The translations under genes and the position numbers were made by a program. From Desulfitibacter sp. BRH_c19 (GTDB taxonomy: Bacteria > Bacillota > DSM-16504 > Desulfitibacterales > Desulfitibacteraceae): a DNA stretch of 64,000 bases. Of the stretch, positions 11,634 to 16,531 are shown one piece after another; the first letter of the stretch is position 1, and the number at the start of each line of letters is the position of its first letter. The stretch spans positions 248,001 to 312,000 of the forward strand of contig LOER01000026.1 in the NCBI GenBank assembly GCA_001515945.1, read 5' to 3'. Under the pieces are notes generated by a model that was not told where the DNA came from, did not search any database, and saw only the letters and a program-made list of their open reading frames with translations.

Positions 11634-11662
11634 GTGACATTGTCTTATTGCCATGCTATAAT
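11634..11662 (+). promoter_or_regulatory. Sigma-A-type promoter of the ECF/tryptophan operon
   Basis: GTGACA (11634-11639) and TATAAT (11657-11662) are separated by exactly 17 bases. Transcription would begin near 11668-11670, directly at the 5' stem-loop of the leader. Confidence 0.75.
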
Positions 11663-11667
11663 GTTTT

Positions 11668-11842
11668 TTAAGCAGCAATAGTGCTTGCTTAAGAGTTTAG
11701 TTGAGATAAGAGTTTAGCTGAGGCAAGAAAAGTGAATAGAGGGGAGATGAGTAGAGATGAGTTGAGTCGAGTAGAGATTAGCTTTAGCTTAGACTGTCTA
11801 ATTATGTTTATTAGCCAGACTCATTTCATGGGTCTGGTTTTT
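11668..11842 (+). promoter_or_regulatory. TRAP-type attenuation leader with (G/U)AG repeats and terminator
   Basis: Right after the promoter a perfect seven-pair stem-loop (TTAAGCA 11668-11674 with TGCTTAA 11686-11692) is followed by trinucleotide repeats. A first group is GAG/TAG at 11693, 11698, 11703, 11710, 11715 and 11720. A second is ten in near-perfect five-base register: GAG at 11744, 11749, 11754, 11759, 11764, 11769 and 11774, TAG at 11779, 11785 and 11790. This is the arrangement bound by the tryptophan-activated 11-mer TRAP (MtrB) in Bacillus, including the 5' stem-loop. A terminator follows at 11815. The controlled gene is a TrpP-like transporter component, which fits. Confidence 0.88.
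11815..11842 (+). terminator. Attenuator terminator in the TRAP leader
   Basis: CCAGACTC and GGGTCTGG form an eight-pair stem with a seven-base loop, followed by TTTTTT. It lies 23 bases after the last TAG repeat and 130 bases before the first gene, so it acts as a premature terminator. TRAP binding upstream would be expected to favour it. Confidence 0.85.
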
Positions 11843-11886
11843 TGGTTTTGTTGCAGAGGTGTTAAATGGAAAAAGAGCTATAAGTT

Positions 11887-11945
11887 GGGGACATTCCTCG
11901 GCGAAGGAGCATGTACATTAACAGCCTAGAAAGAGGTGTGTCCCC
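11887..11945. repeat. GGGGACA-type palindrome, family F, copy 2
   Basis: GGGGACATTCCT at the left and AGGTGTGTCCCC at the right bracket a 35-base loop. The element lies between the attenuator terminator and the ribosome-binding site of the first ECF gene, so any read-through transcript contains it. Confidence 0.55.
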
Positions 11946-11971
11946 TTTCATTGAAGGAGGAGAAAAAACAA

Positions 11972-12613
11972 ATGAGAAGTGAATTAAATAAAAATCATAG
12001 TGACCATAATGAAGTAATTAAAACTAATGAAGTAATTGAACCTAATAAACCCAATGAAACAATGGATATAAATCTTGGATCTGGTGGTGCTGTATTAACC
12101 GGACAAAATACCAATACAAGACAAATTGCTATAGTAGCAGTTTTGATAGCCATAGGTGCAGTACTGAGAATTGTTTCCCCTTCGATTGCGGGGATTACTC
12201 CAAACTGGGTAATAGCCATGTATTGTTTAGCAATAATTCTTGTAAGACCAAATATATTTGCAGCAGTAGGAATAGGTTTCGCAGCAGGTGCTATCAGTAT
12301 GGTTACATCAAAATCACCTATTCCCTATCTTAACCTGATTACTGAACCTGTAGGAGCAGTTGTTGCACTAATGTTTATTTTATTACTACCAAAGCTATCA
12401 ATTAAAGGATATTCCTTAAAACCATTTATAATAGCATTTATGGCTACACTAGCAAGTGGCATCTGTTACCTAGGATTAAATATGGTAATACTTAGTTTAC
12501 CAACAGAAGCGGTAAGGGTGGCTCTTATTACTGTAGTAATTCCTGTAGCGATTTTGAACTCAACTATTACCCAACTTTTATATTACCCAGCTAAGAAGTT
12601 TCTGAACAGCTAG
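11972..12613 (+). CDS. trpP: ECF transporter substrate-binding (S) component, TrpP-like
   Basis: A 213-residue membrane protein. Residues 1-45 are hydrophilic and Asn-rich with the repeated phrase NEVI; then about five to six helices follow with features of the TrpP tryptophan S component (an IAIGAVLRI first helix and PYLNLITEPVGAVVALMF in the middle). It would bind the substrate and dock on the EcfA1-A2-T module encoded immediately downstream. ATG 11972 is chosen for the AAGGAGGAG site eight bases before it. The TRAP leader is independent support for tryptophan as substrate. Homology to TrpP is by eye, so another ligand remains possible. Confidence 0.8.
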   Translation: MRSELNKNHSDHNEVIKTNEVIEPNKPNETMDINLGSGGAVLTGQNTNTRQIAIVAVLIAIGAVLRIVSPSIAGITPNWVIAMYCLAIILVRPNIFAAVGIGFAAGAISMVTSKSPIPYLNLITEPVGAVVALMFILLLPKLSIKGYSLKPFIIAFMATLASGICYLGLNMVILSLPTEAVRVALITVVIPVAILNSTITQLLYYPAKKFLNS

Positions 12614-12647
12614 TTCCAGAAGGACCGAATGTTTGGAGGTAAAAAAA

Positions 12648-13484
12648 GTGGCACAAATTGCTTTAGAACGCGTCAGTTTTAGATATGAAAAAGCAGATGA
12701 ATATGCCATTAAAGATATAAGCTTAACAATTAATCCTGGAGAATTTGTGGTACTTACCGGTCCTGCTGGGGCCGGAAAGTCTACTATGGCATATTGTATC
12801 AACGGCGTTATTCCTCATTTTCAGAGGGGGATGATGCAGGGAGATATATTTCTTGAAGGTCAAAACAGCAAACAACTTACTACTGGCAGCATTGCCAAAA
12901 TGGTGGGAAGTGTATTTCAAGATCCAGAAGCACAAATCGTATGTGCACGAGTTGATGAAGAAATTGCATTTGGATTAGAGAACCTAGGGGTTCCTTCTAG
13001 AGAAATTACTAAAAGAATTGGTAATGTGTTAGAGCTAGTGGGAATAGAGGAATTAAAATATAGACCAACAAATGCTCTATCTGGTGGCCAAAAACAAAGG
13101 GTAGCTATTGCAGCAGTTTTAGCAATGGAACCTACAATCTTGGTCTTGGATGAACCTACGTCAGAGCTTGATCCCTTTGGTACATCACAAGTAATTGAAT
13201 TACTTCACCGGCTAAACAAAGAAAAGAAAATTACCATAGTCCTTGTGGAACAAAAAATTGAAGAAGCAATTTCCTTTGCTACGAGACTTGTGATAATGCA
13301 GCAAGGAGAAATAGTTATAGAAGGTGAACCAGCTAAGGTGCTCACAAAGGATGCCTTGCTGAAATCAGCAGGAGTAAAGCTACCCCAGCTAGTAAACCTC
13401 GCATATAGGTTAGGGTTAAAGGAAGATGTTCCATTAGACCTTTTAGATGCTGAAGCTATGGTAAGGAATTATGTTGGGAGGTAA
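12648..13484 (+). CDS. ecfA1: ECF transporter ATPase A1
   Basis: A 278-residue ABC ATPase energising the S component. Walker A GPAGAGKST, Q loop SVFQDPEAQIV, signature LSGGQKQRVAIAA, Walker B ILVLDEPTSELD and H-loop-position residue in VLVEQK (Gln where many have His) are visible. GTG 12648 is preferred: GGAGG lies eight bases upstream, inside a longer frame opened by TTG 12633. It begins 34 bases after the S component and six bases before ecfA2, one operon. Confidence 0.9.
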   Translation: MAQIALERVSFRYEKADEYAIKDISLTINPGEFVVLTGPAGAGKSTMAYCINGVIPHFQRGMMQGDIFLEGQNSKQLTTGSIAKMVGSVFQDPEAQIVCARVDEEIAFGLENLGVPSREITKRIGNVLELVGIEELKYRPTNALSGGQKQRVAIAAVLAMEPTILVLDEPTSELDPFGTSQVIELLHRLNKEKKITIVLVEQKIEEAISFATRLVIMQQGEIVIEGEPAKVLTKDALLKSAGVKLPQLVNLAYRLGLKEDVPLDLLDAEAMVRNYVGR

Positions 13485-13489
13485 ATGAG

Positions 13490-14332
13490 TTGGAGAAAAT
13501 GCTAATAGAAGTTGAAGAATTAGACTATGCATACGAAAAGTCCAGCCATGTCTTGAGAAATATTAATATTAAGATTGCAAGGGGCGAGATAATAGCATTC
13601 ACAGGGAAAAATGGATCTGGTAAGACAACCCTGGCCAAGCATTTTAATGGCTTACTTAAACCAAGCTCAGGTAAGGTGCTAATTGATGGAAAGGATACTG
13701 CAAAGCGGACAGTATCTGAATTAGCTCAAACAGTAGGCTATGTTTTCCAAAATCCTGACCATCAAATATTTAATGATACTGTCTTTGACGAGGTTGCCTT
13801 TGGACCAAAAAATCAAGGAATAACAGGCAAAAAGCTTGAAGAACTTGTGTTAAATTCTCTCGCAGCAGTTGGTTTAATGGAAGATGCAAATCTATATCCA
13901 TATCGATTGTCCAAGGGTCAAAGACAAAGACTGGCCTTGGCATCAGTCATCGCAATGGAAAGTGACATAATGGTTTTAGATGAACCTACCACCGGTCTTG
14001 ATTATAAAGAAGGATTGGAAATAATGGAACTCCTTAAGAAACTAAACTTAAAAGGGCATACCATAATATTCATCACTCATGATATGGGATTAGTTGCTGA
14101 TTATGCTAAGAGGATGATTGTAGTCTCAGAAGGGGAAATAATAGCTGACAATACTCCTAGGAAAGTTTTTAATCTGGATCAAGTAATAGAGAAAGCACAT
14201 CTAAAGATTCCTGCAGTAACACAGCTTGCAAGAATATTAAAACTATCAAAAAAAACTACATTAAATGATACAGAACTTTTTCAAGAGATCCTTGCTGCAA
14301 AGGAGGCCAACCTAAATGTCCTCTGTAGCTAG
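13490..14332 (+). CDS. ecfA2: ECF transporter ATPase A2
   Basis: The second ABC ATPase, 280 residues, forms a heterodimer with EcfA1. Walker A GKNGSGKTTL, Q loop YVFQNPDHQIF, signature LSKGQRQRLALAS, Walker B IMVLDEPTTGLD and the switch His in FITHDMG are present; the QNPDHQIF motif is typical of EcfA. TTG 13490 follows GGGAGG by eight bases. Its last 17 bases overlap ecfT, suggesting translational coupling. Confidence 0.9.
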   Translation: MEKMLIEVEELDYAYEKSSHVLRNINIKIARGEIIAFTGKNGSGKTTLAKHFNGLLKPSSGKVLIDGKDTAKRTVSELAQTVGYVFQNPDHQIFNDTVFDEVAFGPKNQGITGKKLEELVLNSLAAVGLMEDANLYPYRLSKGQRQRLALASVIAMESDIMVLDEPTTGLDYKEGLEIMELLKKLNLKGHTIIFITHDMGLVADYAKRMIVVSEGEIIADNTPRKVFNLDQVIEKAHLKIPAVTQLARILKLSKKTTLNDTELFQEILAAKEANLNVLCS

Positions 14333-15089
14333 CTACATTACTAGAAATTCGTTAGTTCATAATTTACATCCATTGACTAAAATTATTGGTTCTCTCTGGT
14401 TTTTGACATTAAGTATCATGGTAAGCACACCTATACATCTAATGATCATCTTAGCCATGGTAATTTTCTGTGGCTTTATTGCAAGAATTTCCATTGAAGT
14501 CTTAAAATCTCTTAAGGCAATAACTGTTTTTGCAATTATTATTTTTCTTATTCAAATTGTATTTTATAAATGGGGGACTGTTGTTTTTTATATGATACCT
14601 GTAGTAAATTGGCTTCCAGTCACGATGGAGGGTATTTACTTTGGAATTTCTATAGGGTTAAGAATGATGATTATCTTACTTAGCTTTATTATTTTTCTAT
14701 CTACCACCCAAACAAGGGACATGATGATGGTCTTAGTGGAAAAGCTAAAGGTTCCTTATGACTATGCTTTTATGTTTGTGACTTCCCTGAGGTTTATTCC
14801 AACTTTTATGAGTGAGGTGAAAGCAATTCAAGAAGCACAAAAAGCAAGGGGTTACAGGCTTGAAGGAGCTAATCCTCTAAAGAAAATCAAAGCTTATGTG
14901 CCAATTGCTCTGCCCCTAGTATTAATATCTCTTGCTAAGGGAGAACGTTTAGCCCTAGCTATGGAAACACGAGCCTATGGATCAGGAGTTCCAAGAACCT
15001 ATTTAAAAGAGTGGAAAATAGAAATAAAGGATATAGCTGCCATGGTACTAATGTTATCCATACTGGTGCTGGCGGTTTATATGAGATAG
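14316..15089 (+). CDS. ecfT: ECF transporter transmembrane coupling protein T
   Basis: A 257-residue membrane protein that couples the two ATPases to the S component. It has about five hydrophobic helices and the two Ala-Arg-Gly-like coupling motifs, KARGYRLEG and METRAYGS, that contact the ATPases. ATG 14316 lies after AAGGAGG within ecfA2. This is the last gene of the operon; a heptamer repeat rather than a terminator follows. Confidence 0.92.
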   Translation: MSSVASYITRNSLVHNLHPLTKIIGSLWFLTLSIMVSTPIHLMIILAMVIFCGFIARISIEVLKSLKAITVFAIIIFLIQIVFYKWGTVVFYMIPVVNWLPVTMEGIYFGISIGLRMMIILLSFIIFLSTTQTRDMMMVLVEKLKVPYDYAFMFVTSLRFIPTFMSEVKAIQEAQKARGYRLEGANPLKKIKAYVPIALPLVLISLAKGERLALAMETRAYGSGVPRTYLKEWKIEIKDIAAMVLMLSILVLAVYMR

Positions 15090-15189: not shown

Positions 15190-15231
15190 TTCTGACTTCA
15201 GACTTCTGACTTCAGACTTCTGACTTCTGAT
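15190..15231 (+). repeat. Heptanucleotide tandem array, copy H1
   Basis: Six consecutive seven-base units of TTCTGAC type (alternating with TTCAGAC). It lies just before the phenylacetate-CoA ligase ribosome-binding site. Arrays of the same heptamer occur at 20876, 27121, 55700 and 61956. Confidence 0.8.
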
Positions 15232-15256
15232 AACTGAAAGTTGAGGTGAGATGAGA

Positions 15257-16531
15257 ATGGCTATTCAAGCTGAGCTAGTTGAGAAAAGACATGAATTTAA
15301 AAATCAATTTCCAAGCAGAAAAGTTACTGAACTGTTAAATAGGCTTTATTTTAATTCTGAGGTTTATAAGAAAAAACTTGCCAAGACAGGATATAGCCCT
15401 GTTTTAGACATCACTTTTGATGAATTCTCCAACCTTCCATTTACTGAAAAGCATGAGCTTAGAGAAGGGGGGCCCCTTTCTATGTTAGCAGTACCAGAAG
15501 AAGATGTTATTAGAATTCATTCTTCCTCAGGAACAACGGGAAAACCTGTAGTTATCCCCTATACTCAACAAGATGTAGATCAGTGGGCCCAAATGATGAA
15601 ACGTTGTTATGAACTTGCTGGGGTTACTAAAAGAGATAGGGTGCATATTACACCAGGCTATGGTTTATGGACTGCGGGAATAGGCTTCCAGGCTGGAGTA
15701 GAAAAGCTTGGGGCAATGGCTGTACCAATGGGCCCTGGGAATACTGATAAACAGTTGGAAATGATGATAGATCTTAAAAGCTCTGTATTAATTGGAACTT
15801 CCTCCTATGGACTTTTATTAGCTGAGGAAATTCACAGCAGGGGTATCAAGGATAAAATACATCTTAAAACAGGAATTTTTGGATCAGAACGCTGGGGAGA
15901 AAAAATGCGCCGCAAAATTGAGGAGCTTCTCGGCATAGAAGCATTTGACATATATGGATTGACCGAAGTATACGGACCTGGAATTGCCCTTGATTGCAAG
16001 TATCATCAGGGGATGCATTACTGGTCAGATCACCTTTTCATGGAAATTATTGACCCCATAACAGGAGATCCCCTGCCACCTGGAGAATTAGGAGAACTGG
16101 TAATTACAACACTTACTAAAGAAGCTATGCCTTTAATTCGTTATAGAACCAGGGATTTGACTCGCATAATTAATGAGCCTTGTTTGTGTGGCTGCCCACA
16201 TCCACGCCTGGATAGAATATTAGGTAGAACTGATGATATGATTAAAGTCAAGGGAGTTAATATCTATCCTGGTCAAGTTGATAATCTATTAAAGGAAATT
16301 CAAGGCTTAAGTAGTGAATATCAGATATTTATATCTAGGAAAGAAGGCAGAGACAAGCTGCTTATTAAGGTGGAGAAAGAAAAGCACACTAGCTGCATTA
16401 ACCTGGAAAAAATAATTGAAGCTGACTTTAAAAATAAAATTGGAATTACAGTTAATGTAGAAGTGGTAGATTGTGGTTTGCTGCCTAGAAGTGAAAAGAA
16501 GACAAAAAGAGTTTTTGATGAAAGAGAATAA
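15257..16531 (+). CDS. paaK: Phenylacetate-CoA ligase family enzyme
   Basis: A 424-residue adenylate-forming ligase that activates an aryl acid such as phenylacetate to its CoA thioester with ATP. The P-loop HSSSGTTGKPV, the YGLTE motif, the YRTRDLT Asp, and the hinge and C-terminal motif GRTDDMIKVKGVNIYPGQ are intact. In anaerobes it often serves aromatic amino-acid breakdown via arylpyruvate and arylacetate, which would suit the tryptophan transporter upstream. No indolepyruvate oxidoreductase genes are adjacent, so the exact acid is unknown. ATG 15257 has better spacing from AGGTGAG than ATG 15251. Confidence 0.88.
   Translation: MAIQAELVEKRHEFKNQFPSRKVTELLNRLYFNSEVYKKKLAKTGYSPVLDITFDEFSNLPFTEKHELREGGPLSMLAVPEEDVIRIHSSSGTTGKPVVIPYTQQDVDQWAQMMKRCYELAGVTKRDRVHITPGYGLWTAGIGFQAGVEKLGAMAVPMGPGNTDKQLEMMIDLKSSVLIGTSSYGLLLAEEIHSRGIKDKIHLKTGIFGSERWGEKMRRKIEELLGIEAFDIYGLTEVYGPGIALDCKYHQGMHYWSDHLFMEIIDPITGDPLPPGELGELVITTLTKEAMPLIRYRTRDLTRIINEPCLCGCPHPRLDRILGRTDDMIKVKGVNIYPGQVDNLLKEIQGLSSEYQIFISRKEGRDKLLIKVEKEKHTSCINLEKIIEADFKNKIGITVNVEVVDCGLLPRSEKKTKRVFDERE

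Follow-up and report, generated by a model that had tools for sequence, protein, structure and literature searches.

A putative TRAP-controlled transcription attenuator in front of an ECF-type tryptophan importer operon in Desulfitibacter

What controls an ECF-type importer operon whose leader carries two runs of (G/T)AG triplets followed by a terminator? In this study, we have explored this question in Desulfitibacter sp. BRH_c19, in a stretch of 64,000 nt (contig LOER01000026.1, positions 248,001 to 312,000, forward strand; hereafter the window), and in the homologous loci of other genomes. A preliminary description of the window had proposed that TRAP, the product of mtrB, shuts off a tryptophan importer by attenuation. 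Our analysis supports this proposal: mtrB is present, the repeats are conserved together with mtrB, and the terminator after the array is conserved as well. We consider it probable (about 0.88), on the strength of sequence comparison, that the leader is a TRAP-controlled transcription attenuator fronting a dedicated ECF-type tryptophan importer. The features of the leader and of the operon are the following:

11634-11662, + strand: promoter of sigma-70 type, GTGACA-N17-TATAAT with a TG extension (extended -10)
11668-11692, + strand: 5' stem-loop at the transcript start, predicted by folding
11693-11722, + strand: upstream array (block 1), six (G/T)AG triplets at distances of 5, 5, 7, 5 and 5
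11739-11792, + strand: main array (block 2), putatively TRAP-binding, eleven (G/T)AG triplets, from the repeat scan
11813-11842, + strand: intrinsic terminator (attenuator), 12-bp stem and 3-nt loop, then a T tract
11972-12613, + strand: trpP-like ECF S component (PF17099), from ATG at 11972, extendable to GTG at 11936
12651-13484, + strand: ecfA1 ATPase (PF00005); the listed ORF begins with TTG at 12633
13499-14332, + strand: ecfA2 ATPase (PF00005); the listed ORF begins with TTG at 13490
14316-15089, + strand: ecfT transmembrane component (PF02361, CbiQ)

The elements previously described ahead of the operon were all recovered. The promoter matches the consensus at 11 of 12 positions, the 5' stem-loop folds where the transcript would start, and the terminator has a hairpin proper of 12 pairs with a loop of 3 (11813-11839), after which the tract of six T follows. 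The repeat count, given as six plus ten, needed correction in its second part: the six upstream triplets stand, but the main array holds eleven, a GAG at 11739 having been overlooked, and the two blocks together contain 17 triplets rather than sixteen. Those of the main array start at 11739, 11744, 11749, 11754, 11759, 11764, 11769, 11774, 11779, 11785 and 11790, a 5/6-nt register with spacers of 2 nt and a single one of 3 nt. An 11-member chain at this spacing occurs once in the whole 64-kb window, it is longer than the chains of 300/300 dinucleotide shuffles, and the longest chain on the opposite strand has 4 members (6 at looser spacing). For whole-genome pattern counts, a backward control is uninformative, because GAG is the same when reversed.

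The description of the operon as a TrpP-like S component with ecfA1-A2-T is borne out by its domains. The S component (PF17099 TrpP, 62.8 bits against a cut-off of 27.2) adjoins two ABC_tran ATPases and a CbiQ/EcfT protein in one operon, that is, an ECF group with a dedicated module. Its AlphaFold model has a pLDDT of 87, and each of its ten best hits in the PDB is an ECF S component (RibU, ThiT, BioY or one without a name), with TM scores of at most 0.66 and weak Foldseek E-values (at least 0.08).

A search of the organism's own genome (G000) found one canonical copy of mtrB (Pfam TrpBP, PF02081, E 7.7e-40), and the alignment of this MtrB with solved TRAPs covers the whole core. The RNA-binding residues of TRAP (F32, E36, K37, D39, K56 and R58 in B. 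subtilis numbering; PMC3184956) are all kept, as read off the ORF. MtrB also has Leu at position 15 and Ser at position 72, as does the 11-mer of B. stearothermophilus, whereas Lys15 and Thr72 are tied to 12-mer TRAPs (PMC3184956). An 11-mer ring is therefore predicted for MtrB, and such a ring would fit the eleven repeats of the main array. Anti-TRAP gave no match over the cut-off in the same genome, the best one lying in an ORF of 376 aa. Anti-TRAP resembles the DnaJ zinc domain; from this likeness and from its size, we take that ORF to be DnaJ.

The repeats proved to be kept among relatives that have this operon, and their conservation goes together with the presence of mtrB. In a genome of the same genus with a homologous operon (G001), the promoter lies at the same place (GTGACA and TGCTATACT), as do a 5' stem-loop of different sequence (CAGGCAC/GTGTCTG) and an upstream array of six to seven triplets, mostly TAG instead of GAG; the main array keeps its register, with one AAG, and the terminator is kept too. 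As searches of the order and the class comprised just four genomes, we used a draw of 398 genomes from the phylum, with TrpP in 110 and mtrB in 200. The loci read from it were the weaker TrpP matches, nearly all ECF-linked, and among its 34 ECF-linked trpP loci a significant upstream (G/T)AG chain was found in 27/27 from genomes with mtrB and in 0/7 from genomes without it (Fisher 1.9e-7, for genomes that are related and hence not independent). A second set, of named genomes, gave 78 loci with sufficient upstream sequence: 31 have an array without a T-box motif, 34 a T-box motif without an array over threshold, and 13 neither. In the 50 named genomes tested, mtrB was present in 29 of the 31 with an array and in 1 of the 19 others (Fisher 1.9e-10, although both Fisher values overstate independence, since the two sets share at least seven genomes and the genomes are akin). 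The exceptions are two metagenome genomes (L140 and L155) with a clear array in which mtrB was not found, suggestive of either an incomplete assembly or a recent loss of TRAP. One genome with mtrB (L151) has a chain of three repeats only.

Relatives that lack mtrB usually have, in front of the same operon, a Trp T-box in place of the array. Three of these T-boxes are at or above the Rfam gathering score (L102, L132 and L134) and two are below it (L094 and L101); the other loci were recognised solely by the conserved antiterminator motif of GGNGGNACC type; of the eleven loci that stayed short of the gathering score in the Rfam scan, nine rest on this motif together with the specifier. The specifier position, 115-190 nt 5' of the antiterminator motif, reads UGG in 34/34 loci with the T-box motif, and this favours tryptophan as the molecule sensed and carried. 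These observations suggest that the operon is served by TRAP where mtrB is present and by the Trp T-box where it is absent, the one taking the place of the other. In three genomes without mtrB (L087, L093 and L105), the TrpP-like domain lies in a long frame of 494-495 aa, in the order ATPase-EcfT-TrpP-ATPase, and neither array nor T-box was found upstream.

TRAP attenuation of the importer is thus strongly supported by comparative evidence, namely the co-occurrence of array and mtrB, the conservation of the terminator, the T-box swap and the contrast with stand-alone trpP genes described below. We infer TRAP binding, the direction of the response and the route to read-through as follows. Transcription would start at about 11669. 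When tryptophan is plentiful, a tryptophan-loaded MtrB ring would bind the main array (11739-11792) of the growing transcript, and RNA polymerase would stop at the terminator (11813-11842), before trpP-ecfA1-A2-T. When tryptophan is scarce, TRAP would be off the RNA, the array region would be free to pair, and the polymerase would read through, so that the importer is made.

The weakest inferred step of this model is the competing antiterminator that would decide the outcome. The mutually exclusive antiterminator and terminator raised in the preliminary description can be folded in the window leader: when the 3' arm of the terminator is left out, its 5' arm is paired upstream at 0.83, and at 0.41 with the array masked, although in full-length folds the terminator forms whether the array is masked or not. 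Across leaders, pairing of the array with the terminator arm is not above the shuffled controls (own arrays 0.41, swapped 0.37, shuffled 0.39), and we therefore do not claim a conserved antiterminator. The fold of the window leader also suggested a clamp helix between the two flanks of the array, which was likewise unsupported across leaders (p 0.094). B. subtilis TRAP is able to terminate transcription even when the attenuator has been removed (PMC3913778), which makes direct, TRAP-assisted termination a possible alternative route, and by analogy TRAP may promote termination directly in the ECF leader.

A further question is why the leader has more triplets than one ring can hold. Of 50 leaders, 15 have an upstream array, compared with 3.1% of shuffles, so that this array appears real in a sub-group, comprising the genus of the window, Desulforamulus and heliobacterial leaders, Desulfosporosinus and Petroclostridium. 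It could be that the main array is occupied by one TRAP ring and the upstream six by another that is only partly filled, giving a steeper or two-step response; this would elaborate TRAP attenuation rather than exclude it. The 17 triplets do exceed an 11-mer ring, and the linker between the blocks (16 nt in the window leader against 50 nt in G001) makes them look like separate modules. On the other hand, block 2 by itself supplies eleven repeats, the binding of a ring to just six triplets may be weak, a predicted hairpin takes in block 1 of the window leader, and surplus triplets such as the 19 NAG of B. halodurans (PMC3184956) are known where no second ring has been demonstrated. Moreover, relatives with a main array of 7-8 repeats total about 10-13 over both blocks, which one ring could span. 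Altogether, a leader that works as a two-ring or two-step tryptophan sensor, with the upstream six as a docking array at the 5' end of the transcript, is a tentative proposal that we regard as rather unlikely. The possible roles of the upstream array are a part of the site of one ring spanning both blocks, an early docking site, or the site of a second ring. If one ring spanned both blocks, inverse repeat numbers might be expected, and no negative correlation was seen (rho 0.11, p 0.45). Many leaders (L116, L121-L131, L128 and others) share a conserved element similar to gACAATTtCATAa immediately before the main array, of which the genus of the window has a weaker form (aaaagtgaaTA); a pairing partner was sought for this element and none was found.

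Another possible mechanism would be that TRAP binds the leader and acts mainly on translation or RNA stability, the terminator being constitutive or minor. In B. subtilis, TRAP represses trpP by covering its Shine-Dalgarno sequence (PMC13170310), an additional short run of triplets lies at the ribosome-binding site of trpP in the ECF leaders of G086, G046, G202, G227 and G191, and the antiterminator pairing, as noted, does not exceed its control. The geometry of the leaders speaks against this. In the window, the main array is about 180 nt 5' of the trpP start codon, with the terminator in between, and 48/52 leaders have a strong terminator within 110 nt 3' of the array, a frequency to be compared with 1.8% for shuffled segments. 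It is in stand-alone trpP genes of genomes with mtrB that the array sits over the ribosome-binding site instead (at -8 to -48, in 8/19), as it does in B. subtilis, which argues that the attenuation geometry is specific to ECF-linked trpP. We consequently find action mainly on translation or stability improbable, while the triplets at the trpP ribosome-binding site indicate that translational control may add to attenuation, or replace it, in some leaders.

It is equally improbable, in our judgment, that the operon carries another substrate, such as a different aromatic compound, and that TRAP merely coordinates its uptake with tryptophan status. The PF17099 match is a moderate one, and an aryl-CoA ligase gene follows the operon both in the window and in G001. 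Nevertheless, B. subtilis TrpP is a tryptophan transporter (PMC13170310), and in different lineages the same operon is under TRAP or a Trp T-box; as these are unrelated tryptophan sensors, their presence on one operon is good evidence that it carries tryptophan. The ligase gene of the window (15251-16531) is phenylacetate-CoA-ligase-like (AMP-binding, AMP-binding_C_2), and homologues of at least 60% identity are also found near ECF-trpP in L110, L082, L138, L142 and L181. At the start of the window gene, GAGgtGAGatGAG lies over the ribosome-binding site, and the homologue of L138 has a longer triplet run (GAGacGAGgatGAGAGGAGAGTAGctGAGatGAG) over the start, so TRAP may control the ligase too. 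Between ecfT and the ligase gene, the window also contains a short tandem repeat of TTCTGACTTCAGAC-like units (15190-15230).

That the window leader is itself a T-box or a leader-peptide attenuator is very improbable, despite the Trp T-box on the same operon in relatives without mtrB: RF00230 does not reach its gathering score anywhere in the window and gives no hit to the leader even with E-values of up to 5 allowed, no other Rfam family reaches its gathering score in the window, the only weak match in the leader scan is to an unrelated sRNA family below its cut-off, and the sole ORF of at least 60 aa that begins in the region of the array continues across the terminator.

There are clear similarities and differences between this leader and the known systems. 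The leader of B. subtilis trpEDCFBA also has a 5' stem-loop, eleven (G/U)AG repeats with spacers of 2-3 nt and an attenuator hairpin with a U tract (PMC3913778), with array and attenuator placed before the first gene and an 11-mer-type TRAP. The key distinctions are that an importer would be controlled here instead of biosynthesis, that a second, upstream array of six is present, and that the terminator, with 12 bp and T6, looks stronger than the weak B. subtilis trp attenuator, which has 10 bp and a U tract that is interrupted. B. subtilis trpP (yhaG) shares the regulator and the transporter family (PF17099), but it stands alone with TRAP on its Shine-Dalgarno sequence, whereas here the array lies far upstream of a gene that has its own ecfA1-A2-T. 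The ECF-trpP leaders with a Trp T-box, in Bacillota without mtrB and in Coriobacteriia, have the same operon, a signal of tryptophan supply and transcription attenuation; there the RNA alone senses uncharged tRNA-Trp, whereas here a protein ring would sense tryptophan. Finally, in the B. halodurans trp leader the triplets also outnumber the subunits, but the operon is biosynthetic and the TRAP a 12-mer with Lys15/Thr72 (PMC3184956), unlike the Leu15/Ser72 found here.

The open-access literature describes attenuation of biosynthetic operons by TRAP, regulation of trpP at the translational level and transporter genes under T-boxes, and in it we found no TRAP attenuator on an ECF tryptophan operon; subscription papers were mostly beyond the scope of this search. 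The parts are known, and what appears new to the literature is the use of TRAP, in many Clostridia-like lineages, as a transcription switch on an ECF importer. Such sites may be listed in comparative work by Rodionov and by Merino and Yanofsky. To our knowledge, TRAP is known almost exclusively from Bacillus, whose importer gene trpP it controls at the level of translation; our results suggest that in many Clostridia-like lineages it attenuates transcription of a whole ECF importer operon. The exchange of TRAP for a T-box strengthens the case that TrpP of the ECF-linked kind transports tryptophan. Some 50 leaders, including those of culturable Desulforamulus, Moorella, Heliobacterium and Pelotomaculum, represent a natural test set, which bears on how a protein ring and a tRNA-sensing RNA came to do the same job.

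Both kinds of sensor are also met in the organism's own genome. Before trpE (L002 1161-1530, in G000:C18) lies a Trp T-box (RF00230, 100.9 bits) with a GAAUGGACC specifier, and between its terminator and the trpE start at 1591 there are five (G/T)AG triplets in register and further irregular ones, so that the trp operon is probably under double control by T-box and TRAP. A group II intron domain (RF02004) matches at L002 387-560, 5' of this T-box.
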